Positions 10,619 to 33,070 of a DNA stretch of 33,070 nt are shown piece by piece (position 1 is the stretch's first letter; every line of letters begins with the position of its first letter). Origin of the DNA: Pyrinomonadaceae bacterium (GTDB lineage Bacteria > Acidobacteriota > Blastocatellia > Pyrinomonadales > Pyrinomonadaceae); assembly GCA_013696465.1 (NCBI GenBank), contig JACCYN010000294.1, forward strand, positions 1 through 33,070. Direction: 5' to 3'. The notes under the pieces are model-generated. The model searched no databases. It had not been told where the DNA came from and saw only the letters and a program-made list of their open reading frames with translations. The position numbers and the translations under genes were made by a program.

Positions 10619-11698
10619 ATGCTTAAACCGCATCTTCTCATCATTTCTATCCTCAACATTATACTAATCGTTTGTATGTGCTTTCCGCTTTCCAGCAGCT
10701 ACCTACTCACGCACGCGCAAAAAGCATCTGTGGCTGAGTCAAACGTGACGGCGAGCGGCGTCAAACTTTACCAACAAGGAAACTTTAATCAAGCCGTTGA
10801 AGTTTTACGCCGCGCTGTTAAGCAGCGCAAAGATGATGCCGAAGCATGGCTCTATTTGGGTCTTGTGCTCAACCGAAAGGAAAACGCGAAGGAAGCGCGT
10901 AAAGCTTTTGAGCGCGCTGTCAAGTTGCGCCCTGATTCCACCATTGCGCACATAGGTTTGGCTTACACGTTGCTATTATTGAACAAAAATTTAGAAGCAA
11001 ATCGCAGCGCCGAACAAGTATTACAACTAGATGCGCGTAACTATGAAGCTCATTACATTGCTGGCGTCGTGCGCTTACGCAACGGTCAGTACGAGGAAGC
11101 ATTGAAGCGCGCTGAATCAGCGATAAAACTCAATGATAAGTATGCGCTCGCATACCTGCTCAAAAGTCAGGCGTTAATCGGCATCGCCGCTTCACCGCTT
11201 AACACTGCTATGATGCGGCAGGGGGTTTCATCAGATGAGCTACGACAAGTAAATTCCGCCGCGTATGAGAATTATAAGCAAGCAGCCGAGAGCCTTGAAA
11301 ACTATCTACGCTTGTCTCCGAATGTGAACAACGCCGACGAAGTGCGCGAGCAGCTTGAAAACATTCGCATATATGGACGCTCCGGCGAAACCGTTCAACC
11401 GGAACGAACATTATTTCGCTCCACTGAAGTGACAACCAAAGCGGTAGTTATAAGTAAACCGGAGCCGCCTTACACAGAGGCGGCGCGACAAGCGTGTGTG
11501 AGCGGCATCGTCAGATTGCGTGCTGTTTTGTCTTCGGACAGCACAGTTAAGCATATTCTCGTTATAAAACCACTCAGTCATGGACTAACGGAGCAAGCTA
11601 TACGCGCCGCGCGCCGCGTCAAGTTTACCCCTGCGTCGAAAGATGGGCGTCCGGTCTCGCAGTACGTTGTGCTTGAGTATAGTTTCAGATGCGGTTAA
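10619..11698 (+). CDS. TPR-repeat protein with C-terminal TonB-like domain, secreted
   Basis: N-terminal signal-like segment; TPR repeats ([34 protein letters not shown]); C-terminal [59 protein letters not shown] matches the TonB C-terminal pattern. Confidence 0.8.
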
Positions 11699-11769
11699 AC
11701 CTTGACGACGCAAAACAACACCCAGAAGAATCGTAGTAGTAATTGCTGTGGCTATGATTCATTACACTT

Positions 11770-12981
11770 ATGAGCGCAAACGTCACGTCCACAAACCCAC
11801 TCGTTCAAGCGATCATCTCCGGCACGGCTCCGCAGGCGGCGCGGATGGCGGCGGCGCGCGGGATGTTGCCGCTTGCGCAAGGTGAGTTGCTCGAAATCTT
11901 GGTCGTGTTGCAGGGGAGCGACGACGAAGCGGTTAAGCAGGCGGCGGCGGAGACGCTCAACGCGCAGGAGGCGGAGACGTTGCGCGATGTCGCGGCGGCG
12001 GACGAAACCTCTCCGGCCGTGCTCGGCTACCTTGCCGCCCGCGCCGACGCAGGGCGCGAAGCGCACGAAGCCGTAACGCTTAATGATAAAACGCCCGACG
12101 AAGCCATCGCATTGCTGGCGGTCGCAACCGCGAACGGCGCGTTGCTTGAGTTGATTTCGATCAATCAACAACGACTGATTCGCGCGCCCGCGATCATTGA
12201 CGCCGTGCTTACGAATGCGGCGCGCACGCTGGAAGCCGAGCGGCGCGTGCGCGAAGTCAGGCGCGAGTTTTTCGAGAAGGAGCGTGGCGCGCAGCAGATC
12301 GCCGAAGAGTTGCGCGCGCGCGGCGAAGTGGCCGCCGCCGAATTTATCGAAGCATCCGAGTCAATCGGCACGGAAGCTTTCGCCGTTGATGATGCGTGGC
12401 TCATCGCCTCGCACGTCGAAGTGTCCGACGACGACATTGACGATTCGTGGCTTCCGCACGAACTACTCGAAGAACTTTACGACGAGTCGTTCGAGCAGCG
12501 CGCCGCAAACGCCGAGCGCGTCGTCAACGAAACAATTTCCGAGGCGGGAGAAGCCGTGGTGCCGGAGCGCGTCTCGCTGATCCGCCGTCTGATGATGATG
12601 AACGTCAAGGATCGCGTGAAGATGGGAATGAAGGGCGACCGCGAGACGCGCTCGATCCTGATCCGCGACGCAAACCGCATCGTCTCGGCCGCCGTGATTC
12701 ACAACCCGCGCATTATGGATCAAGAGATTGAGGCGATTTCGGCGATGCGCACAGTCTCTGAGGAAGTGCTGCGTTTGATCGCGCTCAATCGCCAGTGGGC
12801 GCGCTCCTATCCGATCATTCACAACCTTGTGCGCAACCCGCGCACGCCGATTGGCACCGTAATGCAAATTCTGCCGCGCATTCAAGCGAAAGATTTGCAA
12901 ACGCTTTCGCAAAATCGCAACGTCTCAGAAACCGTCCGCCGTCAGGCTCAACGGCTCACGCAGGTTCGCGCCGGACACTAA
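11770..12981 (+). CDS. Conserved uncharacterised helical-repeat protein, 403 aa
   Basis: Complete ORF; C-terminal KMGMKGDRETRSILIRDANRIVSAAVIHNPRIMDQEIEAISAMRTVSEEVLRLIALNRQWARSYPIIHNLVRNPRTP resembles a recurrent uncharacterised helical-repeat family. Confidence 0.7.
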   Translation: MSANVTSTNPLVQAIISGTAPQAARMAAARGMLPLAQGELLEILVVLQGSDDEAVKQAAAETLNAQEAETLRDVAAADETSPAVLGYLAARADAGREAHEAVTLNDKTPDEAIALLAVATANGALLELISINQQRLIRAPAIIDAVLTNAARTLEAERRVREVRREFFEKERGAQQIAEELRARGEVAAAEFIEASESIGTEAFAVDDAWLIASHVEVSDDDIDDSWLPHELLEELYDESFEQRAANAERVVNETISEAGEAVVPERVSLIRRLMMMNVKDRVKMGMKGDRETRSILIRDANRIVSAAVIHNPRIMDQEIEAISAMRTVSEEVLRLIALNRQWARSYPIIHNLVRNPRTPIGTVMQILPRIQAKDLQTLSQNRNVSETVRRQAQRLTQVRAGH

Positions 12982-16175: not shown

Positions 16176-17465
16176 ATGCTTGATCTCCATTACGTCCGCG
16201 AAAATTTAGACGCGGTGCGCGCCGCGCTCGAAGCGCGCCGCTCCCCCACGACTGCGCTCGAAGATTTTGCGCGCATTGACGGCGAACGTCGCCGCGTCAT
16301 CGCCGAATCAGACAACTTAAACGGCGGGCGCAATACGGCGAGCCGCGAAATAGGCCAGTTGATGAAGGATGGCAAGCGCGACGAAGCTGAAAAGCGGCGC
16401 GGCGAAGTCGGACAACTGAAGGAGAGAATCGCGGAGCTTGACCGCAAGCGCGACGAAGCTGAAAGGAACATGAATGAGATTCTCTCCACGCTTCCGAACG
16501 TACCGCACGAGAGCGTGCCCGTCGGCACGGGCGAATCCGAAAACGTGGAGATGCGGCGCTGGGGCACAATCCCCGAATTTGATTTCACGACGAAAGATCA
16601 TGTTGACTTAGGACTGTCGCTCGGCGTCCTTGATTTGGAACGGGCGACTAAGATCGCCGGGGCGCGTTTTTCGATTCTGCGCGGCGCGGGCGCGCGCCTC
16701 AATCGCGCGCTTATTGATTTCATGCTCGAACTGCACACGCGCGAACACGGCTACACGGAGATCGTGCCGCCCTTTATCGCCAACGGCGATACGCTGTTCG
16801 GCACGGGTCATCTTCCGAAATTCGAGGGAGACCTTTTCAAACTTACGGACGAGCGCGGTTTTTATTTAATTCCGACGGCCGAAGTGCCGCTCACGAGTCT
16901 TTACCGCAACGAGACGATTGATTTTTCGGCGTTGCCGATGAAGCTCACGGCTTACTCGCCCTGCTTCCGCTCCGAAGCCGGTTCTTACGGGCGCGACACG
17001 CGCGGGATTTACCGGCAGCATCAATTCGAGAAAGTTGAACTTGTCAAATTTGCCCTGCCCGAAAATTCCAACGATGAACTGGAGACGATGACGCGCGACG
17101 CAGAAAAGGTTTTGCAACTGCTGGGATTGCCCTATCGCGTCGTCGAACACGTCACGGGCGATCTCGGATTCTCGGCCGCAAAGTCTTACGACATCGAAGT
17201 GTGGCTTCCGTCCTACAACGAGTTTCGTGAAATCTCTTCGTGCTCGAACTACGAAGCGTTTGCGGCGCGCCGCGCAAGCATTCGTTTCAAACGCGCGGGC
17301 GGCGCGAAACCCGAATACGTCCACACGCTTAACGGTTCTGGACTCGCCATCGGGCGCACGTGGATCGCCATTCTGGAGAATTATCAACAGGCGGACGGCT
17401 CGATAGTTATCCCTGAAGCGTTGCGCCCGTACATGAACGGATTAGAAAAGATCATCGCGCCGTAA
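16176..17465 (+). CDS. serS: Seryl-tRNA synthetase
   Basis: [144 protein letters not shown]. Confidence 0.98.
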
Positions 17466-17476
17466 AGACGAAAGAG

Positions 17477-17514
17477 AAAGCGGAGAAGAATGCGATTCGC
17501 CTCTTCTCCGCTTT
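17477..17514. terminator. Terminator-like hairpin between convergent serS and SLT gene
   Basis: 13-bp perfect arms aaagcggagaaga (17477-17489) / tcttctccgcttt (17502-17514). Confidence 0.7.
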
Positions 17515-17539
17515 GAATAAAATTCAGTTTATATTCGTT

Positions 17540-18361
17540 TCACTTCGCGCTTGACGCGGAGAGCGGTTCGCCTCCGAGTCCGAAGGCTTGCGGGTTCTCG
17601 CCGATGATCGCGGCGGCGTAAAACGTCAGCACATACTTGCTGCCTTCCTGCACGATTGACTCATTCAACTTCGCCCCGCGCGGGTTCGTCATCAACGCCC
17701 AGAAATCTCCTTCTTCCCGTCCCGCGTTCAAGCGCGGCAAAACTTCCGCCTTCACTTTCCCTTCGCCTTGATTATAACTTAAGACAGCAAGCGATAAGCC
17801 CGTGCCCGAAGAATTAAAATCGCGCAGAAGTTTCGCGTGATAGCGCGCGGCTACTTCGGCTGAAATTTTCAGCTCGCAGAGTTGCGCCGGATCGCCTCCG
17901 AATCGCTGCATCGTCTTCGGCATAATCTGGAAAACCCCTTTCGCGCCGTAAGGACTCGTCGCGCACTCCTTGTATTCGCTCTCGATGAACGCCGTGTAGA
18001 GGCCAAGGAGCGGCGAAAGGTTTTCGTTGCGGTAAGCCGTGATGACAACGTCCGCGCCAGATCGTGCGCGCGTCATCACCGCGCCTAACTCTTCGCGTCT
18101 CGTTTGCGTTCCAACGCGCGCCGCATACATTTCAACGAACGGCTTGACGCTGCGGGCGGCTTCCGCGCCGAACACTAAGGGACGCGCGCCGTTCGTCATC
18201 TCCCCAGAGAGGCGCGCGCCCTGCTGTTGGATAAAGACGATTCGTTCGGCGTCCGTCATGTCTCCATATTTTTTTGTTTGCGCTTCCGTCTGCTGCGCGC
18301 CGCCGACGACGATCAGCAACAAACAGAACACAGGTGAAAAGCAGAAGTTAATTTTTCGCAT
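17540..18361 (-). CDS. Secreted lytic-transglycosylase-like (SLT/goose-lysozyme-like) protein, 273 aa
   Basis: N-terminal signal peptide; SLT-type motif IESEYKECATSPYGAKGVFQIMPKTMQRFGGD and AVLSYNQGEGKV. Confidence 0.82.
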   Translation of the reverse strand: MRKINFCFSPVFCLLLIVVGGAQQTEAQTKKYGDMTDAERIVFIQQQGARLSGEMTNGARPLVFGAEAARSVKPFVEMYAARVGTQTRREELGAVMTRARSGADVVITAYRNENLSPLLGLYTAFIESEYKECATSPYGAKGVFQIMPKTMQRFGGDPAQLCELKISAEVAARYHAKLLRDFNSSGTGLSLAVLSYNQGEGKVKAEVLPRLNAGREEGDFWALMTNPRGAKLNESIVQEGSKYVLTFYAAAIIGENPQAFGLGGEPLSASSAK

Positions 18362-18392
18362 GTAGTTTTATCTCCGTTAAGTTATAGATTAC

Positions 18393-18473
18393 AACTTGCA
18401 GCGACCTTCGAGCATGGCGGCGGGTCGAACGATTTGTCAACACGCGGCGGTCGCGCGAAAATCGCTGCAAGTT
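18393..18473. repeat. Perfect 12-bp inverted repeat in divergent intergenic region
   Basis: aacttgcagcga (18393-18404) / tcgctgcaagtt (18462-18473), 57-nt spacer. Confidence 0.8.
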
Positions 18474-18480
18474 TCTTTTG

Positions 18481-18510
18481 TTGCCACAACAAGCAGATCG
18501 GTTTTACAAT
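18481..18510 (+). promoter_or_regulatory. Putative sigma70-type promoter for ECF sigma/kinase genes
   Basis: TTGCCA (18481-18486), 18-nt spacer, TACAAT (18505-18510), just downstream of the right arm of the inverted repeat. Confidence 0.45.
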
Positions 18511-18615
18511 CTCCTTGCCGGTGCCAACTTCCATTAAGCGATCAGCGAAGCCGCTCATGCCGCAAAACATTCCGACTCGCTTCGTCGCCCTCACTTAAGT
18601 AACGCGAGAATTACG

Positions 18616-19248
18616 TTGGAAAATCGTCATCCAACCGCGCTGAAATATCGCCCATCAAACAACTGGAACGAGGAAATTCCTGTGGAGCACGAAGTAACCG
18701 GACTTTTGCAGAGATGGAGCGACGGCGATAAAGAAGCTCTTGACCGACTCGTGCCGCTCGTCTACGACGAGTTAAGGCGCGCGGCGCGTCGTTACATGCG
18801 AGATGAAAACAATAATCACACTTTGCAGACGACCGCGCTTGTCAACGAAGTTTATCTGCGCTTGGTTGACCAGAAGCAGACGCGCTGGCAAAACCGCGCG
18901 CACTTTTTCGGCATCGCTGCCGGGATGATGCGCCGCATTCTCGTTGACCACGCGCGCCGCCGCAAATATCAGAAGCGCGGCGGCGACGCGGCATTTGTTC
19001 AACTTTCACTACGCGAGGCGGAAGCGTTTGCCCGCGAAGAAGATTTGGATTTATTGAAGCTGGACGAAGCTTTGACCGAATTGGCGAAACTTGATCCGCG
19101 CCGCAGTCGTGTCGTCGAGTTGCGCTTTTTCGCCGGACTAGATATGAAAGAGACGGCGGAAGCTTTGCACGTCTCAATCGCCACCGTCCTGCGCGACTGG
19201 AACATGGCGAAGGCTTGGCTGTATCGTTACATGAAAGATGAACGATAA
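18616..19248 (+). CDS. ECF-subfamily RNA polymerase sigma factor (TIGR02999-like); TTG start 18616 or GTG start 18682
   Basis: EVTGLLQRWSDGDKEALDRLVPLVYDELRRAARRYMRDENNNHTLQTTALVNEVYLRLVDQKQTRWQNRAHFFGIAAGMMRRILVDHARRR and region 4 VVELRFFAGLDMKETAEALHVSIATVLRDWNMAKAWLYRYM. Confidence 0.93.
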   Translation: MENRHPTALKYRPSNNWNEEIPVEHEVTGLLQRWSDGDKEALDRLVPLVYDELRRAARRYMRDENNNHTLQTTALVNEVYLRLVDQKQTRWQNRAHFFGIAAGMMRRILVDHARRRKYQKRGGDAAFVQLSLREAEAFAREEDLDLLKLDEALTELAKLDPRRSRVVELRFFAGLDMKETAEALHVSIATVLRDWNMAKAWLYRYMKDER

Positions 19249-19317
19249 GACGAGAAGCGCGCCGGACGCTTGACGACGGATGAACGTGACACGCAAATTT
19301 ATGAGTGACGGTTATTG

Positions 19318-21474
19318 ATGAACGGCATACGCTGGCAACAACTAAGTTTGATTTTCCACGATGCGCTTAGACGCGACGGACGGGCGCGCGGAAGGTTTGT
19401 ACGCGCGGCGTGCGGCGCGGACGAATCGTTGCGGCGTCAAGTTGAATCCTTGCTCGGCTCATATGAGCAGGCGGCCGGCGTCTTTGATGAACCGGCGTTT
19501 GAACGCGCGGCGCGCGAGTTGGCGCAAGAGGAAAGCGCAGCTCTCATCGGGCACACGATTGGTCAATACCGCATCCGGCGATTGCTGGGTGCGGGTGGCA
19601 TGGGCGAGGTTTATCTCGCTGACGACGGACGGCTCAACCGTCAAGTCGCCGTTAAACTGCTGCCCCTTCACTTCGCCGCCGACATCGAACAAGTGAGACG
19701 CTTTCAACTCGAAGCGCGCGCCGCTTCAGCCTTGAATCATCCGAACATCCTCACGATTCATGAAACGGGAGAACACGAAAATCGTCATTACATCGTGATG
19801 GAATACGTCGCAGGCGCGACGCTGCGCGAGATGATGGCGTCAACGGCGGACGCTCTTTCGCTCGCCGATGTATTGGACGCCTGCGTGCAAGTCTGCGACG
19901 CGCTCTCCGCCGCGCACGAAGCGGGAATTGTCCACCGCGACATCAAACCGGAAAACATCATGCTGCGCCCCGACGGTTATGTGAAAGTGTTGGACTTCGG
20001 TTTAGCAAAACTCGCCGTCACCACAAACGCGCTCACCGAAGCGAACGACGAGGACAAGACGAGGAATGTGGAGACGGCCGCCGGAGTGCTGTTAGGCACA
20101 ATCAGGTATATGTCGCCGGAGCAAGTGCGCGGGCTGACGGTTGACGAACGGGCGGACGTGTGGAGTTTGGGCGTTGTGCTTTACGAAATGATCGAAAATC
20201 GCGCGCCGTTCGTCGGCGCAACCACCGCCGACACGATTGTTTCCATTCTCGAACGCGAACCCGCCCCGTTCACGATGAAGATTCCTTCGTCACTCCAAAA
20301 GTGTGCGCTCAAAGCTCTCGACAAAAATCGCAACGGGCGTTTTCAAACAACGCGCGAGTTTGCCGACGAACTGAAAAGGATCAAGCGCGAATTGGGAAGC
20401 GCGGATGCTTTCGCGCCGCGAAGGAGTTTCAAAGCTAATCTAAGCGATACAGATCAATTTGCGCGCGAACAAACAGCCGCTCCGGGCGAACTGAAAACCG
20501 CGATGCTCGCAAACGCTTCCACGCACAAAACGAAAAACGCTCTTCAATTCAAAAGTTGGTCGGCGCAATACTGGAAGCGACTCGTCTTCGGGGCGGTGTG
20601 CGCGGCAACGCTCGTCTTCGCCTTCGTCAAAGTCAACGACGTGAGCAAACCTGAAACTCCGCGCCCCACCGCTTCAGCTTCAAGCTTGTCGCCCGATTCT
20701 GCCCAAGCGAGCGCGCGGCTTTATCGGAACATGAACAGCGCGGAACGACTGGCTTTCGTCAGTGAACAAGCTTTGCGCGTGTCGCAAGCTTTAGGCGACG
20801 GCGCGACGACGCTTCCCGGCTCGGCCGCGCAAGTCGTTAAACAACACGTTGACGCTTACGACCGCCGCCGCGACGACGCTTCACCGGAAGCGTTCAAAGA
20901 AACCTTGAACGAAATTTACAAGCGCGCCGCGCTCTACGCGCCGTTGCTCTCGTTTCATTTCAAACGGCAGAACGTGCCCGCCCTCGTCGGAATTTACATC
21001 CCGATGATCGAATCGGAATACCACGATTGCCTGACGAGTCCGCACGGCGCGCAAGGTAAATTTCAATTCATGGAACAGACGGCGCGCAATTATGGTGTGC
21101 GCCCCGAAGATCGCTGCAACGTGGATGTGATCGCGCCCGTCGCCGCGCGCTACATCAAAGATCGCGCGGGTGAGTTTGGCACTGACGCCGCGAGCATGAC
21201 GCTCGTGATCGCAAGCTTTAATCGCGGAAACCGTCTCGTCAAAGACGATCTGCAAAAGTTAAATCGCTTCCTCGTCGCGGACAGCAGCAACGCCAAACCT
21301 GATTTCTGGTTTCTGCTCGCCCACGCCGACGAATTAGACGATCAGTTTCGCGTAGAGAACCGGCATTACGTGCCGAGGTTTTTCGCCGCCGCGATCATCG
21401 GCGAAAACCCACAAGCCTTCGGACTGCCAACGCGGCCGCTCTCATCACTCGACGCGGGCAACGAGGCGCGCTAA
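19318..21474 (+). CDS. Transmembrane Ser/Thr protein kinase fused to an extracytoplasmic SLT-like domain
   Basis: Kinase: YRIRRLLGAGGMGEVYLADD, VAVKLLP, VHRDIKPENIMLRPDGYVKVLDFGLAKLA, GTIRYMSPEQVRGL, ADVWSLGVVLYEM. TM LVFGAVCAATLVFAFVKV (about 20581-20634). SLT-like IESEYHDCLTSPHGAQGKFQFMEQTARNYG and AAAIIGENPQAFGL. Confidence 0.92.
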   Translation: MNGIRWQQLSLIFHDALRRDGRARGRFVRAACGADESLRRQVESLLGSYEQAAGVFDEPAFERAARELAQEESAALIGHTIGQYRIRRLLGAGGMGEVYLADDGRLNRQVAVKLLPLHFAADIEQVRRFQLEARAASALNHPNILTIHETGEHENRHYIVMEYVAGATLREMMASTADALSLADVLDACVQVCDALSAAHEAGIVHRDIKPENIMLRPDGYVKVLDFGLAKLAVTTNALTEANDEDKTRNVETAAGVLLGTIRYMSPEQVRGLTVDERADVWSLGVVLYEMIENRAPFVGATTADTIVSILEREPAPFTMKIPSSLQKCALKALDKNRNGRFQTTREFADELKRIKRELGSADAFAPRRSFKANLSDTDQFAREQTAAPGELKTAMLANASTHKTKNALQFKSWSAQYWKRLVFGAVCAATLVFAFVKVNDVSKPETPRPTASASSLSPDSAQASARLYRNMNSAERLAFVSEQALRVSQALGDGATTLPGSAAQVVKQHVDAYDRRRDDASPEAFKETLNEIYKRAALYAPLLSFHFKRQNVPALVGIYIPMIESEYHDCLTSPHGAQGKFQFMEQTARNYGVRPEDRCNVDVIAPVAARYIKDRAGEFGTDAASMTLVIASFNRGNRLVKDDLQKLNRFLVADSSNAKPDFWFLLAHADELDDQFRVENRHYVPRFFAAAIIGENPQAFGLPTRPLSSLDAGNEAR

Positions 21475-24600: not shown

Positions 24601-24902
24601 AAAAGGATTTTTGAATTTCGATTTGCGATTTTGATTTAATCGCTCTGCCCCTTTGAACTTGCAACTTCAAATCTGAAATTCGAGATCGTGAAATGACAAA
24701 TCGAAAATCAGCAATCGCAAATCCGACTCGTTTGCCGCCCGTTTGCGGCGGGTGTTAAGATGTCTCTACAGTTGCAAAATTACCTTTGTAGAAAGCATTT
24801 AAGAATACCTTAATTTGCCGGTGAGTGTCAGCCCGCTGCGAGCGAGGCCAGCGAGGGCGATGGAGTGTCGGGAAAGCACCGATACTCTTCACAAATGTCA
24901 TC

Positions 24903-25709
24903 ATGTCCGAACGAGCCATCGAAGAATACAGAATCGCGGAAGAGCCTTTTTACATTGCGGTCGCGGGCGAGGTCGAACTGTTTGAGGCGGCGCACGCGGC
25001 GCGTCTGCCCGTGATGCTGAAGGGGCCGACGGGGTGCGGTAAAACCCGTTTCGTCGAACACATGGCGTGGCGTCTCCGCCGTCCTTTGATCACCGTCGCC
25101 TGCCACGAAGATTTATCCGCGACAGACTTAGTGGGGCGCTTTCTGCTTGAAGGCGAAGAAACCGTGTGGCACGACGGGCCGTTGACGGCCGCTGTTCGTC
25201 ACGGCGCGATCTGCTACTTGGATGAAGTCGTTGAAGCGCGCAAAGACACGATTGTGATTATCCATCCGTTGACGGACGACCGTCGCCGCCTGCCCGTCGA
25301 AAAACGCGGTACGATCTTAGACGCGCCGCCTGATTTCCTGCTTGTCGTCTCCTACAATCCCGGCTATCAATCCGTCTTGAAAGATTTGAAACAATCAACG
25401 CGCCAACGCTTCGTTGCCATCGAATTCGATTACCCGCCGCCGGAGATGGAGGCGGAGATCGTCAGGCGCGAAGGCGGCGTAGACGCTGGGACGGCGCGCG
25501 ACCTCGTGCAGATCGGCGCGAAGATCAGAAACTTGCGCGGGCACGGTTTAGAGGAAGGCGTCTCGACAAGGCTTTTGATTTATGCCGCGCAACTCATCGC
25601 GGGGGGCATTCCGCCCACACGCGCCGCCGAAGTCGCGCTCTGCTCGCCCATCACGGACGACCGCGAACTACAGCGCAGCATCCGCGAGATTGTGACAACT
25701 GTTATTTAA
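24903..25709 (+). CDS. CbbQ/NirQ/NorQ-type MoxR-family AAA+ ATPase
   Basis: [21 protein letters not shown] (Walker A), [39 protein letters not shown] (Walker B), [34 protein letters not shown] at 24903 preferred over the track start at 24825. Confidence 0.92.
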
Positions 25710-25769
25710 TTCTCAACTTGAAACCTTGAACAACCGTTACGATTATTCGATCCGCGCCTTTATGCTCTC

Positions 25770-25868
25770 ATGGATTTCTCCGCCGCCGTGACGCAAACCG
25801 ATGCGGTCGCGCCGCCGAAGGGCAAACAAAGCTTCAAAGCTTTTTTCTACGAAACGGCGAAGAACTGA
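25770..25868 (+). CDS. Candidate small ORF, 32 aa, between AAA+ and VWA genes
   Basis: ATG...TGA encodes MDFSAAVTQTDAVAPPKGKQSFKAFFYETAKN; GC-rich third positions like genuine genes here; no strong Shine-Dalgarno seen. Confidence 0.25.
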   Translation: MDFSAAVTQTDAVAPPKGKQSFKAFFYETAKN

Positions 25869-25916
25869 CAACATGCTCATCGTCAACAAGCGTCTTCTAC
25901 AGTTAATTCCAAAGGG

Positions 25917-28900
25917 ATGAACACAGAGAATCGCGGGCATATGTTTGACCACGAAGCGACGGAAACGGAAGCCGCGTCTTCTCTTCCGGCGCAACCGTTA
26001 GAGCGCGTAATGCGCGCGACGTTGCGCGGCGTGAAGGATGGACGAGAGCGACGCACAATCACGGGGTTGATGCGCGAACTTCGCAAACTTCCGGCGGATG
26101 TCGCGCGCGCAATCGTTGAGACGAGCGCAGCACTGGCGGGCGTGAACTTGCGCGCCGGTGTCGAGTTTCTGCGCGTCGCTCCGCAAGCGGCGCAGGTGTT
26201 AGACGCGAATAATCTACGACAATGGGGAGAGCTAGGGCGGCGTCTGGCGGGAGGGGACGCGGAAAGAGCGGCAGCATTTTTCGCAGACGGAGCGGAGAAT
26301 CTAAATTCGCTGCCCGCGCAATCGCGTTCTTTGTTGTTGGAAGTCTGTTTGCGACAAGCGGGGCTTTCAATTGTCATCGCGCTCGACACATTTAAGCGCA
26401 CGCCGCTTCTACTCGCGCAAAACTTTCGTGACGAGCAATCGCTCCACCGTCTCCTCCTCATCACAAACGAGATCGCACGCCGCTCGGCGCGCCACAGCGC
26501 GGATTTTATCAACGCTTCCGCGTCGGTCGCCGCGCGCCTCGAAGATTTTAACGACGATAAGTCGCTTGTTGGCGAAGCCGCGTTGAAAGTGGCGGAAGCT
26601 TTCGCTTTGAGCGCGGGCGGCATGGCAGCGGATTTATGGGCGCGACTCCCCGCCGCGCTGCGTGATCTGAACACAAAAGACGCGCTAAAACTTTTTCGCT
26701 TAACCGAGAAATTCTTAGAACGTGGCGGCGCGGCGGCGCTGGGCGTTTTAGAAGCGGGCGGCGAAGTTTTGCGTTTGCTGCCCGCAGCCTTTGACGAGTG
26801 GACGCGGTTGCTAGAGACGATTGCGGCGGAAGGCAATCCGGTGTTGAGCAGTTTGACGCGCACGACCCCTGCGACGCTACACGGACTTGCAACGCACGGT
26901 GAGCGGGCGCACAGGAGTGAGACCGCGCGTCGCGTGATCGCCGCCACCGTCGAGGTTGCGCGCGTGGATGCGGAAGCCGCGCTGCTCTGCTTTCGTTCCG
27001 CGCCCGTTGCCTTGAAACGAGCCACAAACGTCGAAAGCTTTGAACGCTGGGCGCGCGAGGGACTTGGCTTGAGCGGGGCAGGCGCGCGCGCGCGGCGAAG
27101 TTATTTTGCGCTTGAAACGCGGCGAAGCCACGAGCGACTCGGAGACGAAAGCGGCGGACTCCGACTTGAAGATGTCGCACACACGCTGCGCCTCTACGTC
27201 GAGGCTTTAACGAATCGCACGGTTGATGTCGCGCCGCTCGCACACTTTAACGCGGAGGCGAGCATCAACGACGGGCGCACGATTCATTTGCCGTCGGTCG
27301 TCCACGAGTTTGAACGTGAGGAATTAAATTTTCGTCTTTACAAAACGCTCGCCGCGCACGCCGCCGGGCAAATCGAATTCAACACGCACGAGAGCGGAAG
27401 CGACGATCTGAGAGACGCCTACCACGCGCTCGGCGAACTCTACGCGCCGGAGAACGCGGACGCGCGCGATGCTTTTGCCTTAGACGGCTACATCAACGAA
27501 ATCTCCGCCGGAGAAAAAGCCCTCGCGCCGGAAGAGGAAAACCGACGGCTAGAACAAACGCGCCGCCGTCTGCCTTCCGGCGGAGATTACCACGCCGTGC
27601 TCACGCTCTTCCCGCAAGCCTCGCTCGCCGCGCGCATCTTCGGCACGCTTGAGAACGGCCGTATTGATCGTCGTCTGCGCCACACCTATCGCGGCTTGCG
27701 GCGCGACCTCGATTTCGTCAGTCTTCACCTGCGGCAGAATCGCCCCGCAATCACGCGCCTTTCCCCAGCGCTCGTTCCCTTCGAGTTGCTTTTCCAGATC
27801 GCGCTCTGCGGCGGCGCGCTCGACGACGCGCGGCAGTTCTACTCGCAGATCGTCTCCGAACTCGAATCAATCGTCGCCGATTATCTTTCTTCTTCCACCG
27901 CGACGGTCGCAGACACGCTGATGGCGACGAGCCGCGTCTATTCGCTTTTTCAATCCGTTGTGCCGGACGAGTCGCAACAATCGCAGCAACCCGAAGCCGC
28001 CATCGAAGGGGCGGACGCCGAGCAGCAGGGAGAGAATTCGTTGCAGAACGAAATCAAAGATTCAACCAAACAGAAAAAGAAGCAGCAACAGAAAAGGAAG
28101 CAACCTGACGCGCAAGAGCTTTTCAACGCTTGGGCGCGCGCGGAGAATCTCGCAAGCGATTCCGACCCGCTCGACGGCAACTACGCTTACAACGCGGGAA
28201 GAGAAACGCCCGAACAAGATTTGGAACCCGGCGATACGGCTTACGCTTACGACGAGTGGGACAGAGAGTTATCGGATCACCGCGTGAATTGGTGTCGCGT
28301 GATCGAAAAGAGCGTGCGACGTGGCGACCGTTCATTCGTCGAACTCGCTCGCTCGCGTTATCGCGGATTGATTTCTTCGATCCGTCATCAGTTTCAACTC
28401 ATGCGTCCCGAAGGCTTGCGGCGCGTGCAGAATGAGTTGGACGGCGACGACTATAATCTTGACGCTGTGATTGGCTACGTCGCCGACCGCCGCGCCGCCG
28501 TGCAAACAGGAATTGATCATCATTCCGAACGCCTCTACACGAAACGTCTGCGCCGCGAGCGCGATGTGGCGGTCGCTTTCCTCCTCGATCAATCTTCTTC
28601 GACGGCGCGCACCATCGGGCGTCACCCGCTCCAACCTTACACGCATCCGGGCAAGCGCATCATCGAAGTAGAAAAGGAAGGTTTGGTTTTGATGAGCGAA
28701 GCGCTCGAAGCTGTCGGCGACCGATACGCCATTTACGGCTTCACTTCGGAAGGGCGACGCAACGTGCGCTTCTACGTCGTCAAGGATTTTGACGAGCGAT
28801 ACGACGCCGAGATCGAGCGGCGCATCGGCGGCATCAATTATCAAAACAACACGCGACTCGGCGCGGCCGTTCGCCACGCTGCGGCGAAACTCGCCCGCCA

Positions 28901-29168
28901 AGACGCGCGCACGCGCTTGCTCATCATCCTCTCCGACGGACGCCCCTACGATCACGATTACGGCGATTCGGCTTACGCCCGCGAAGACACGCGCGCTGCG
29001 TTGCGCGCGGCCAGACTCGATAACGTCACGCCCTTCTGCATCACGATTGACCGCGACTCGGAAGCGGAACTGCGCGAGCTTTACGGCGAAGTCGGCTACA
29101 CGATTATTGACGATGTGTTAAGTTTGCCGGAGCGGATGCCTGCCATCTATCGCCGCCTGACCGCGTAA
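25917..29168 (+). CDS. NorD/CbbO-like VWA-domain protein with long helical N-terminal region, 1083 aa
   Basis: C-terminal [19 protein letters not shown] (MIDAS-like DxSxS), [41 protein letters not shown]; preceded by the AAA+ partner gene. Confidence 0.88.
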
Positions 29169-29184
29169 ACAAACGGACAAAATT

Positions 29185-30120
29185 ATGAGCGAACAAATTT
29201 ATGATTGCATAGTGGTCGGCGCGGGCCCCGCCGGACTCTCCGCCTCGCTCTTTCTCGCGCGCTACCGTCGCCGCGTGCTCACCTTTCATCACAACAGCCC
29301 GCGTAACATCTATTCGCACGGTGTCCACGGCTTTCTCGGTCATCATGGCATTCTGCCGACGGAGCTTTTAGAGCGCGGTCGCAAGGAAGTCACCGAGCAC
29401 GGCGGACTCGTCATTGAAGGCTGCGTTACGAAAGTTGAACGCCTCACGGATGATCTCTTTCGCGTCTCAACCGGCAACGAAAAGATCGTCGGGCAATCTT
29501 TCGATGCGCGCCGCTTGATTCTCGCCACAGGCTTGCGCGATCTCACGCCGGACTGTCCGGGCTTTACTGATTTCTACGGGCTCACCGTGCATCACTGCCC
29601 CGATTGCGACGGCTTTGAAATCACCAACAAGCGCGTCGTCGTGCTCGGACACGGCAAAAAGGCCGTCGGCTTCACGCTCAACATGCTGACGTGGACGGAT
29701 CAGTTGACGCTCATCACCAACGGCGATCCGGGTGACATTGAAGAAGAGCATTACGCGAAACTCAAAGAATTCAATATCGCGGTCACTGATCAACGGGTCG
29801 TCAAACTTGAGGGCGACGTGGAAGCGAAGCAACTTCAGCGCGTGCGTTTTGAAGACGGCGATGCGCTCGAATGCGACTCGCTCTTTTTCAACTTCGGCGT
29901 CAAACCCGCGTCCGACCTGCACACGCAACTCGGCTGCCGTCTCGACGAAGAATGCGGCATCGTCTGGGTTGACGACCTGCAACAGACGAGCGTAAGAAAC
30001 GTCTACGCCGCCGGAGACTTAACGCCCAACTCGCAACTCGCCGTCGTCGCCGCCGCTGAAGGCGCAATGGCCGCGATTCACGTTCACAAATCGCTGATAC
30101 CGGAAGAGCAGCGCGTTTGA
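29185..30120 (+). CDS. Thioredoxin-reductase-like NAD(P)/FAD-dependent oxidoreductase
   Basis: DCIVVGAGPAGLSASLFLARYRR; LTVHHCPDCDGFEITNKRVVVLGHGKKAVGF (CxxC active-site-like and second nucleotide-binding motif); VRNVYAAGDLTPNSQLAVVAAAEGAMAA. Confidence 0.9.
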   Translation: MSEQIYDCIVVGAGPAGLSASLFLARYRRRVLTFHHNSPRNIYSHGVHGFLGHHGILPTELLERGRKEVTEHGGLVIEGCVTKVERLTDDLFRVSTGNEKIVGQSFDARRLILATGLRDLTPDCPGFTDFYGLTVHHCPDCDGFEITNKRVVVLGHGKKAVGFTLNMLTWTDQLTLITNGDPGDIEEEHYAKLKEFNIAVTDQRVVKLEGDVEAKQLQRVRFEDGDALECDSLFFNFGVKPASDLHTQLGCRLDEECGIVWVDDLQQTSVRNVYAAGDLTPNSQLAVVAAAEGAMAAIHVHKSLIPEEQRV

Positions 30121-30134
30121 GTAAAGTGAAAGTT

Positions 30135-31244
30135 ATGATTTCGCAAAACGAAGAATTCACAATTGGCGTTGAAGAGGAATATCAGATCGTTCATCCGCAA
30201 ACGCGCGAGTTGCGTCCGCGCGCCGAGCGCATCTTGGCGCAGGAGGCGGTCGGCGACAATGTGACGCCGGAGCTTTACCTTTCGCAGATCGAGATCGGAA
30301 CGCCGATCTGCCACACCCTTGCAGACGTGCGCGGCGAACTCACGCGCTTGCGCCGCGAAGTCGTCCGTGCCGCCCTGCGCGACGGCTCGCGCATCGCCGC
30401 CGCCGGAACGCATCCCTTTTCGCACTGGGAAGATCAGCTGATCACGCCGAAGGCGCGCTACGTCGGCATCTGGCAGGATTATCAACAACTCGCCCGCGAA
30501 CATTTGATATTCGGCTGCCACGTTCACGTCGGAGTCAAAGACCGCGAACTTGCGATCCAAGTTATCAACCGTGTGCGCCCGCACCTCCACACGCTGCTCG
30601 CGCTCGCCGCCAACTCTCCCTTCTGGCTTGGCAACGACACGGGCTATGCGAGTTTCCGCACCGAAGTCTGGCGACGCTGGCCGATGTCCGGCACGCCACA
30701 GGTTCTCGCGTCGCGCGCCGATTATGATTCTTTAGTTGAGGAGTTGGTCGCAACTGAGAGCGTTACCGATGCCTCGAAGATTTACTGGGACGTGCGCCCG
30801 GCGTTGCGCTTCGAGACGGTAGAGTTTCGCGTGACGGACGTATGTCTGACGATTGACGAAGCGGTGATGGTGGCGGGATTGACGCGCGCCCTCGCCCGCA
30901 CGTGCTTCGAGCACGCGCGGCGTGATGCGCCGTTTGATCACGCGCGCCCCGAACTGCTGCGGGCGGCGAAATGGAGAGCCGCGCGTTACGGGTTGGACGC
31001 CGATTTGATTGACGTTGAAGCGAAGGCGTCAGCGCCCGCCGCCGAAGTGATTGAAAACTTTCTCGGCTTCTTACGCCCGTCGCTCGAAGCTCATGGCGAG
31101 TGGGACGAGATTTCGGCGCTCGTGCGCGAAACAGTCGGGCGCGGCAACGGCGCGAGTCGGCAGCGCGCGGCTTACGCGCAAGCAAACAGCCTCGAAGATG
31201 TTGTTGATTTTATCGCCGCTGAGACGGCAAAAGGTGTAGCATAA
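30135..31244 (+). CDS. GCS2-family carboxylate-amine ligase (YbdK/glutamate-cysteine ligase 2-like)
   Basis: FTIGVEEEYQIVHPQTRELRP, AAAGTHPFSHWEDQLITPKARY, GCHVHVGVKDRELAIQVINRVRPHLHTLLALAANSPFWLGNDTGYASFRTEVWRRWPMSGTP. Start could be ATG 30135 or TTG 30117 overlapping the upstream stop. Confidence 0.92.
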   Translation: MISQNEEFTIGVEEEYQIVHPQTRELRPRAERILAQEAVGDNVTPELYLSQIEIGTPICHTLADVRGELTRLRREVVRAALRDGSRIAAAGTHPFSHWEDQLITPKARYVGIWQDYQQLAREHLIFGCHVHVGVKDRELAIQVINRVRPHLHTLLALAANSPFWLGNDTGYASFRTEVWRRWPMSGTPQVLASRADYDSLVEELVATESVTDASKIYWDVRPALRFETVEFRVTDVCLTIDEAVMVAGLTRALARTCFEHARRDAPFDHARPELLRAAKWRAARYGLDADLIDVEAKASAPAAEVIENFLGFLRPSLEAHGEWDEISALVRETVGRGNGASRQRAAYAQANSLEDVVDFIAAETAKGVA

Positions 31245-31388
31245 AAGCTCGTCGCTCTTCCGTCCGAACGTCATGTTCGACTGAGATACTGTGCTGTAGG
31301 GAATGCTCGTGCATCCCGGCGACGAAGCTTATCTTGCATCGCGCAAGAGTGATTACGCTTTGGCGCGTTCGTATCAGGGATTTTGCTT

Positions 31389-32774
31389 ATGGCTGATGAA
31401 TCAACACAAGCCGCCGTTCAATGGTTGAACGAGCGACTCTCCGACGCTCCCGAACTGACGCCCGAACTGTTCGACGAATTGCGCGCCCGTCAACGCGAGC
31501 AGGGACTCCTGCACGGCGACCGCCCGATCTGCTCGTACCTTCGCCCGTTCCTCTTGCCGCGTGCGCGTTACCGCGAGATCACGGAAGCGGCCGAAACAAT
31601 TGCGCAGGCGATGGAACGCCTTGTGGCGCGCGCGCTCGAAGACGACGCGGTGATGAGCGAATTGGGTTTAACCGAAAAGGAGATCGCCTTCGCGGGCATT
31701 GATCCCGGCTACAGTCCTCTCTGCGTCAACAGCCGTCTCGACGCTTTTCTCACCGAAACAGATTTCAAGTTTCTCGAATACAACGCGGAGAGTCCAGCCG
31801 GATTAACCGACGGCGTGCTGTCGGAGAATGTCTTCTACGATCTGCCCCACATGAAAGAGTTTTTGCAACGCTTTCCACATTGGCGACCGCAGCCGCACCG
31901 TCAAATCCTGCCCGCATTGCTCGGCGCGTACCGCGAATGGAGCAGCAAGCGCGGCGAAACGAAAGAGCGGCCGAACATTGCGATTGTTGATTGGAAGGGC
32001 GTTGCGACCGAGAACGAGTTTCACGTTCTGAAAAGAATCTTTGAGGCGGAAGGCTATCAGACTGTGATCGCCGATCCGCATGATCTGCGTTACGAAAATG
32101 GTCGGCTCGCAGTTGGTGATTTCGAGATTGACATTCTCTACAAGCGCGTGATCATTCACGAATTTTTGGCGAAGTTTGATGAGACGCACCCCGTCGCGCG
32201 CGCCTATGCGGAAGGAAAAGTTTGCATCGCCAATTCGTTTCGCACCAAGGTGGCACACAAGAAAGCCAGCTTCAGCGTTTTAAGCGACGAACGCTTTTCT
32301 CATCTTTTCACGCGCGAGCAACTCGACTGCATCAGCCGATGCATTCCTTGGACGCGCAACGTGAGGAGAAGGAGAACGATCTTTGAGAACGCGGAACATG
32401 ATTTAATTGATCTGATTAAACGCAAACGCGAAGAGATGGTCTTAAAGCCGAACGACGACTACGGTGGACACGGTGTTGTGCTCGGCGCGGAAGTGACCGA
32501 CGCCGAATGGGACGCGCACATCGCGCGTGCGCTCGAAGAATCGTTCGTCGTGCAACAGCGCGTAGCTGTGCGCAAAGAGTTGATGCCTGAGTTCACAGAC
32601 GTACTCCGGTGGGAAGAACTGCTCGTTGACTTTGATCCGTTTCTTTTTCTCAACAAAGCTCACGGCGGCATCGTGCGCCTGTCGTCGTCATCGCTCTGCA
32701 ATGTTTCGTCGGGCGGCGGCGTGACGGCTCTCTTGATTTTAGAAGACGAAGCGACGGACGCGCAGCCCGATTAA
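31389..32774 (+). CDS. ATP-grasp-like ligase (possibly circularly permuted/glutathionylspermidine-synthase-like)
   Basis: KFLEYNAESPAG, KRVIIHEFLAKF, FRTKVAHKKASFSVLSDE, MVLKPNDDYGGHGVVLG, SGGGVTALL. ATG 31389 preferred over TTG 31383. Confidence 0.75.
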   Translation: MADESTQAAVQWLNERLSDAPELTPELFDELRARQREQGLLHGDRPICSYLRPFLLPRARYREITEAAETIAQAMERLVARALEDDAVMSELGLTEKEIAFAGIDPGYSPLCVNSRLDAFLTETDFKFLEYNAESPAGLTDGVLSENVFYDLPHMKEFLQRFPHWRPQPHRQILPALLGAYREWSSKRGETKERPNIAIVDWKGVATENEFHVLKRIFEAEGYQTVIADPHDLRYENGRLAVGDFEIDILYKRVIIHEFLAKFDETHPVARAYAEGKVCIANSFRTKVAHKKASFSVLSDERFSHLFTREQLDCISRCIPWTRNVRRRRTIFENAEHDLIDLIKRKREEMVLKPNDDYGGHGVVLGAEVTDAEWDAHIARALEESFVVQQRVAVRKELMPEFTDVLRWEELLVDFDPFLFLNKAHGGIVRLSSSSLCNVSSGGGVTALLILEDEATDAQPD

Positions 32775-32881
32775 AGTCAGGCGCGGCGGTCGCACTAAAA
32801 GATCACACCACGAAATCTTCACGTCAATCGTAGTTGAGAGGAGCGAAGCGCGTGCGGTATATTGTCGGCGAACCTTTTTGT

Positions 32882-32964
32882 GGAGGCTTAGGCTAATTGG
32901 TAAGTCAGCAGTCTTGAAAACTGCCGCGCGAAAGCGCTTGGGGGTTCGAGTCCCTCAGCCTCCG
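32882..32964 (+). tRNA. tRNA-Ser(UGA)
   Basis: Acceptor GGAGGCT/AGCCTCC, anticodon stem GCAGT-CTTGAAA-ACTGC (anticodon TGA), long variable arm GCGC-GAAA-GCGC, T-arm GGGGG-TTCGAGT-CCCTC. CCA not encoded. Confidence 0.95.
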
Positions 32965-33070
32965 TTCCAATCTCTCAAAATAGCTAACCACCAAAAAGCC
33001 ACAACATACGGCGGCGCGACATCGAGCGGGAGCGCGAAGGAGACTGAAGCCGGAGGTTGCGATGACCAAC

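Follow-up and report, generated by a model that had tools for sequence, protein, structure and literature searches.

A YbdK-type carboxylate-amine ligase gene paired with a permuted ATP-grasp ligase gene in a Pyrinomonadaceae genome

We analyzed a 33,070-nt stretch of DNA (contig C197, hereafter the window) from a genome of 3.29 Mb in 392 contigs belonging to the Pyrinomonadaceae (class Blastocatellia, Acidobacteriota), and found that it encodes a GCS2 ligase of the YbdK type next to a circularly permuted ATP-grasp ligase. With modest confidence, we lean towards a role for these two proteins as successive enzymes of small-metabolite synthesis that form two amide bonds, with the thioredoxin reductase (TrxR)-like gene just upstream belonging to a separate module of a CbbQ-type ATPase and a VWA-domain protein. 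The original prediction had placed all three genes, reductase and ligases alike, in a possible cassette following the logic of a low-molecular-weight thiol pathway.

As that prediction had described, three open reading frames (ORFs) are present and intact on the same strand (Table 1), and their assignment to TrxR-like, GCS2 and ATP-grasp-like families is borne out by profile and fold matches. Values of dN/dS against the sister species G144 are 0.09–0.10 for the TrxR-like gene, 0.10 for GCS2 and 0.13 for the ATP-grasp gene (over its first 252 codons, the part available). These are far from the values of chance ORFs, so the three are working genes under purifying selection. GCS2 most likely starts at an ATG 14 nt past the TrxR-like stop codon, which agrees with homologue alignments; the in-frame TTG further upstream was set aside. 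The suggested close spacing of the two genes therefore stands as near abutment, and the suggested overlap does not. Translation of the ATP-grasp gene likewise most probably begins at its ATG, which is preceded by AGGGA and agrees with the homologue alignment, and the in-frame TTG before it was set aside.

Table 1. Coordinates of the genes and catalytic segments considered here, as positions of the window
Feature	Position	Strand	Details
TrxR-like two-cysteine flavoprotein	29185..30120	+	311 aa; CPDC at residues 138-141
GCS2 / YbdK-subfamily carboxylate-amine ligase (predicted)	30135..31244	+	369 aa from ATG 30135; in-frame TTG 30117
Circularly permuted ATP-grasp ligase (predicted), glutathione synthetase / glutathionylspermidine synthetase fold	31389..32774	+	461 aa from ATG 31389; in-frame TTG 31383; whole ORF 463 aa
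ATP-grasp catalytic motif R118-x-D120 ... E132-x-N134	31734..31784	+	invariant in 20/20 homologues; numbering from 31383
ATP-grasp nucleotide-binding loop KPNDDYGG	32445..32468	+	K355, P356, D358, Y360, G361 and G362 invariant
CbbQ/NirQ/NorQ-type AAA+ ATPase, opens the upstream module	24825..25709	+	CbbQ_C 112 bits; order with VWA conserved
VWA-domain protein, CbbQ partner	25917..29168	+	1083 aa; VWA 37 bits; TrxR-like gene directly 3' in three genera

Two predicted amide-forming ligases

The GCS2 protein matches PF04107 at 191 bits (cut-off 21) and clears the curated models TIGR02050 (YbdK; 298 bits vs a cut-off of 176.4) and NF010039 ("carboxylate-amine ligase"; 400 vs 371 bits). It also clears NF010041, a broad model named glutamate--cysteine ligase (395 vs 332 bits), alongside NF010039; the model name does not amount to evidence on the substrate. 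Scores fall well under the cut-offs of the glutamate-cysteine ligase (GCL) models proper, namely EgtA (18.5 vs 371 bits), cyanobacterial GshA (gshA_cyano; 37 vs 249 bits) and plant GCL (20.6 vs 463 bits). A role in ergothioneine synthesis was rejected on the same EgtA result, and an EgtA search of the window's own genome likewise stayed below the cut-off.

The only solved sequence relatives found for this protein are E. coli YbdK and its Salmonella homologue, and YbdK (PDB 1r8g) is also the first fold match of the predicted structure (TM 0.77–0.82), followed by plant GCL (2gwc). Across 15 homologues, the GxExE start (E19-E21), E59, H135, H137, R227, E236 and R238 are invariant (numbering from 30117). 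Most of the aligned segments share these residues with YbdK, including GxExE, HVH, WDxRP and ExR. By model cut-off, fold and conserved ligase residues, the window protein is classed as a YbdK-type carboxylate-amine ligase, predicted to form an amide. It differs from E. coli YbdK in sequence (∼27% identity in the fold match) and in having a permuted ATP-grasp as its partner. In a tree, window-type GCS2 proteins form a separate branch of eight rows, long enough that its placement is uncertain, and roughly five of the family's genera carry them.

The ATP-grasp protein is more divergent, scoring below the Pfam gathering thresholds of CP_ATPgrasp_2 (24.7 vs 32 bits) and CP_ATPgrasp_1 (20.9 vs 23.1 bits), and a single-sequence search of the PDB gave no match, so that a profile and a fold model were needed. 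Among 20 aligned homologues, 17 match PF14403 (at E 0.01), 14 match PF04174 and six match GSP_synth, and the profile matches 3n6x, a putative glutathionylspermidine synthase (E 5e-12). The AlphaFold model (pLDDT 92.3, pTM 0.92) retrieved human glutathione synthetase (2hgs, TM 0.69), soybean homoglutathione synthetase, 3n6x, GspS, YgiC/YjfC and Cp1B in Foldseek, all at 10–16% identity (matched PDB entries 2hgs, 3kal, 3n6x, 2io7, 7uk8 and 9cjn). From the permuted fold, the R-x-D...E-x-N motif and the lysine loop, the protein is assigned to the glutathione synthetase/GspS-type superfamily. It shares permuted topology and weak family-wide profile matches with PF14403, PF04174 and the glutathionylspermidine synthetases of PF03738, yet lies under every curated cut-off, as a subfamily of its own for which there is no NCBIfam model.

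Likeness to the eukaryotic-type glutathione and homoglutathione synthetases (2hgs, 3kal), which are among the top fold matches (TM 0.62–0.69), is one of fold, at 13–16% identity, and does not by itself point to a gamma-glutamylcysteine site. Cp1B (9cjn), the ATP-grasp ligase of E-64 synthesis, shares the fold and the essential R-x-D...E-x-N residues: in that enzyme, alanine changes at R139, D141, E163 or N165 each abolished or strongly reduced activity (PMC12568646), a correspondence matched here by motif pattern rather than by residue-level structural alignment. Unlike the window protein, Cp1B is fungal (16% identity), and it joins epoxysuccinate to hydrophobic amino acids. Given that the substrates of Cp1B are a dicarboxylic acid and a hydrophobic amino acid, a thiol does not follow from this ATP-grasp fold.

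The original proposal of two consecutive ligases, both predicted to form amides, is upheld, the ATP-grasp resembling eukaryotic-type glutathione synthetase and the GCS2 protein YbdK and then plant GCL. Their catalytic motifs are intact, with no loss of active-site residues. Both ligase superfamilies proceed by way of an acyl phosphate, as has been established in the ATP-grasp and GCL families: each ligase would phosphorylate a carboxylate with ATP-Mg, after which an amine would attack the acyl phosphate. Two consecutive amidations are the most economical reading, and we infer sequential action on small molecules, which would yield a short peptide-like or peptide-amine compound. The Pfam text for PF14403 reportedly predicts small-peptide synthesis together with GCS2 and hydrolases.

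Such logic has been published before. A passage of PMC4431377 states that linked ATP-grasp and COOH-NH2 ligases often perform successive ligations, and the amidoligase clusters of Iyer et al. 2009, as cited there, likewise comprise operon-linked ATP-grasp and COOH-NH2 (GCS2-type) ligases with predicted peptide metabolites. The window pair looks like another case, within an old and uncharacterized set of peptide-making ligases.

Distribution and pairing of the ligases

We surveyed genomes sampled mainly from one class, counting neighbors from a simple ORF caller and profile matches. A second ligase set lies on contig C11 of the same genome, with an ATP-grasp gene (17272-18537), a GCS2 gene (19148-20236) and a third ligase gene on the opposite strand (11569-12516). 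The third ligase is a non-permuted ATP-grasp with weak RimK, Ddl and carbamoyl-phosphate synthetase matches and a profile match to Ddl 3r23 (9e-6), and it is conserved upstream of the ligase pair in many lineages. Of 147 genomes surveyed in the class, 140 carry the ATP-grasp family, 131 carry GCS2 and 130 carry the third ligase; the six sampled genomes of one family (f7) lack all three.

A tree of 95 ATP-grasps separates a window-type clade (type A, 42 rows) from a C11-type clade (53 rows), each with 100% SH-aLRT support. Within 3 kb of C11-type ATP-grasps, GCS2 occurs at 25 of 53 loci, the third ligase at 24 and both at 19, always on the same strand, with 17 of those 25 GCS2 genes no more than 170 nt away. 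By our own arithmetic, a GCS2 neighbor would arise by chance within 3 kb in well under 1% of loci, given one to two GCS2 genes per ∼4 Mb genome. GCS2–ATP-grasp pairs, in most cases accompanied by the third ligase, span Blastocatellia, Obscuribacterales (L170, L179) and Gemmatimonadota (L185). On the suggested check of gene order, conservation holds for the ligase pair, which recurs, and fails for the trio, which is confined to one genus.

As window-type GCS2 forms a separate long branch, the two ligases seem to have been paired on more than one occasion, with the window pair assembled apart from the C11 pair; for GCS2, that branch leaves a simple duplication of the C11 pair unsupported. A functional link between the ligases is supported by the coupling of this ATP-grasp family to GCS2 proteins of two different types. 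Several points weigh against the reading favored here. Sampled loci are related, so the pairing counts are not independent events. Only 2 of the 42 window-type ATP-grasps have GCS2 within 3 kb, and the window-type partners adjoin in two genera only, that of the window and that of G133 (gap 68 nt). One family (f8) retains both ATP-grasps without GCS2, so GCS2 is not always needed. The window itself lacks the third ligase, which sits on another contig. The GCS2 structure is of moderate confidence (pLDDT 73.7). Finally, the short gap between the TrxR-like and GCS2 genes makes it probable that all are cotranscribed here.

In other lineages, the proposed route would include the third, RimK/Ddl-like ligase encoded along with the pair. 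More tentatively, a widespread pathway of three ligases (RimK/Ddl-like ATP-grasp, glutathione-synthetase-fold permuted ATP-grasp and YbdK-like GCS2) might make a peptide-like metabolite or a cofactor that is new. This pathway would be almost universal among Blastocatellia and would also occur in Obscuribacterales and Gemmatimonadota, and the window would hold a second, separately assembled two-ligase version of it. Should a metabolite be found, almost every member of the Blastocatellia, which are a major group in soil, would probably make it. The natural substrate of YbdK-type ligases, found in many bacteria, is generally regarded as unknown; having a conserved partner whose fold is known makes the search narrower, as both enzymes can be assayed together.

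Other neighbors were also recorded. In some lineages, the genes near the ligases include those for an esterase-like hydrolase and for an M29-like peptidase. Window-type ATP-grasps at L151, L154 and L176 (Sorangium) have a conserved opposite-strand neighbor with no Pfam match, and an overlapping ORF upstream at L176 gives weak GCS2 profile matches only.

The TrxR-like gene and alternative functions

The TrxR-like protein is an FAD/NAD(P) oxidoreductase (Pyr_redox_2, 120 bits) that carries the predicted CPDC motif and fails the TrxB model TIGR01292 (141 vs 343 bits); the canonical TrxB of this genome is encoded on contig C124 (407 bits). Its nearest solved chains are 4ntd, 4fk1, 5nii, 3fbs and DepH, and its closest solved relatives are the HlmI-like, DepH and GliT flavoproteins and TrxR (4ntd, 4nte, 4ntc). 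It differs from 4ntd and DepH in having Asp (CPDCD) where they have His after the second Cys. In the sister species, the frame has a single break immediately past the CPDC codons (L140, near 4795), which may be a sequencing or assembly error in a fragmented assembly or a recent inactivation.

At E 1e-30, the TrxR-like gene occurs in 18 of 147 genomes. It lies directly 3′ of the VWA gene in the window's genome, G144, G087 and G143 (three genera) and elsewhere in other genomes. The TrxR–GCS2–ATP-grasp order, in contrast, is confined to one genus (two species), and the ligases pair without a TrxR-like gene in many lineages. Membership of the disulfide reductase in the ligase set is accordingly not supported. 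It seems to go with the upstream CbbQ–VWA genes, and the five genes of this genus may form one operon; the TrxR-like gene would lie beside the ligases by lineage-specific juxtaposition, its own module being CbbQ–VWA. The locus shows that a neighboring TrxR-like gene should not count as proof of a thiol pathway.

We consider it quite unlikely that the trio makes a low-molecular-weight thiol, with GCS2 producing gamma-glutamylcysteine or a related dipeptide, the ATP-grasp extending it by a third residue and the TrxR-like flavoprotein recycling the disulfide. The distant likeness of GCS2 to plant GCL, that of the ATP-grasp to human and plant glutathione synthetases, the clearing of NF010041 and the retention of the trio order in a second species would all fit such a pathway. 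However, GCS2 falls far below the EgtA, cyanobacterial GshA and plant GCL cut-offs, and outside this genus the sparsely distributed TrxR-like gene is unlinked to the ligases. The genome, moreover, already encodes BshC above its cut-off (C333, 9095-10216, −; 360 vs 266 bits), a YpdA-like reductase ∼1.3 kb away (11523-12425, +; 258 bits, under its cut-off of 340) and the canonical TrxB. The BshC and YpdA-like genes suggest bacillithiol, of which Acidobacteria are predicted makers (PMC6282198), and no evidence calls for a second thiol in this genome. The thiol logic of the original prediction is thus not sustained.

Rather improbable on present evidence, yet a serious alternative to two amidations given that the nearest folds include YgiC/YjfC and GspS and that window-type relatives elsewhere lie near PspA, is peptide–polyamine synthesis for envelope stress. 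Here the ATP-grasp would act like YgiC/YjfC or glutathionylspermidine synthetase in coupling the carboxylate of a peptide to a polyamine, and would serve a PspA-type membrane response. About 16 related loci have a window-type ATP-grasp near PspA/IM30, an ATP-grasp that is linked to PspA and akin to glutathionylspermidine synthetase has been described (PMC11237479), and work cited by PMC12568646 reports that YgiC and YjfC ligate peptides to spermidine. Still, no PspA or recognized polyamine gene lies beside the window copy, and the PspA-linked ATP-grasps fall in a different subclade and have no adjacent GCS2. A joint function of all five genes, such as remodeling of a target protein by CbbQ–VWA and its modification by the ligases, has little to recommend it in our view. 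All five share one orientation and are separated by short gaps, in an order kept in the sister species; genus g19 also has a window-type GCS2 downstream of CbbQ–VWA; and the GCS2 fold distantly resembles PafA/Dop. In g19, however, other ORFs separate GCS2 from VWA, at a distance of 0.8–3.2 kb, a search next to GCS2 in G133, G103 and G097 (all on contigs under 10 kb) found no VWA, and the ATP-grasp was not found adjoining VWA outside this genus.

Further observations on the locus

PADLOC gave no match for the three genes and only weak AAA matches for CbbQ, and a phage-defense role was set aside. Scanning the region for promoters and terminators gave results at chance level. The CbbQ/NorQ-type ATPase and VWA genes (24825-29168, +) form a MoxR–VWA style pair that is kept with a divergent mnmA in several genera.

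In other genera, window-type ATP-grasps adjoin a PspA/IM30 gene and a gene for a conserved 283-aa protein (L046, L048, L050, L126, L127, L129, L133, L134, L139, L143 and others), and in some of these PspA-adjacent loci the third ligase lies ∼2 kb off. Just 3′ of the ATP-grasp gene, the window carries a tRNA-Ser (UGA) gene (32881-32965, +). Further upstream, it encodes a 719-aa protein that joins a Ser/Thr protein kinase domain to an SLT lytic transglycosylase domain (19315-21474, +).

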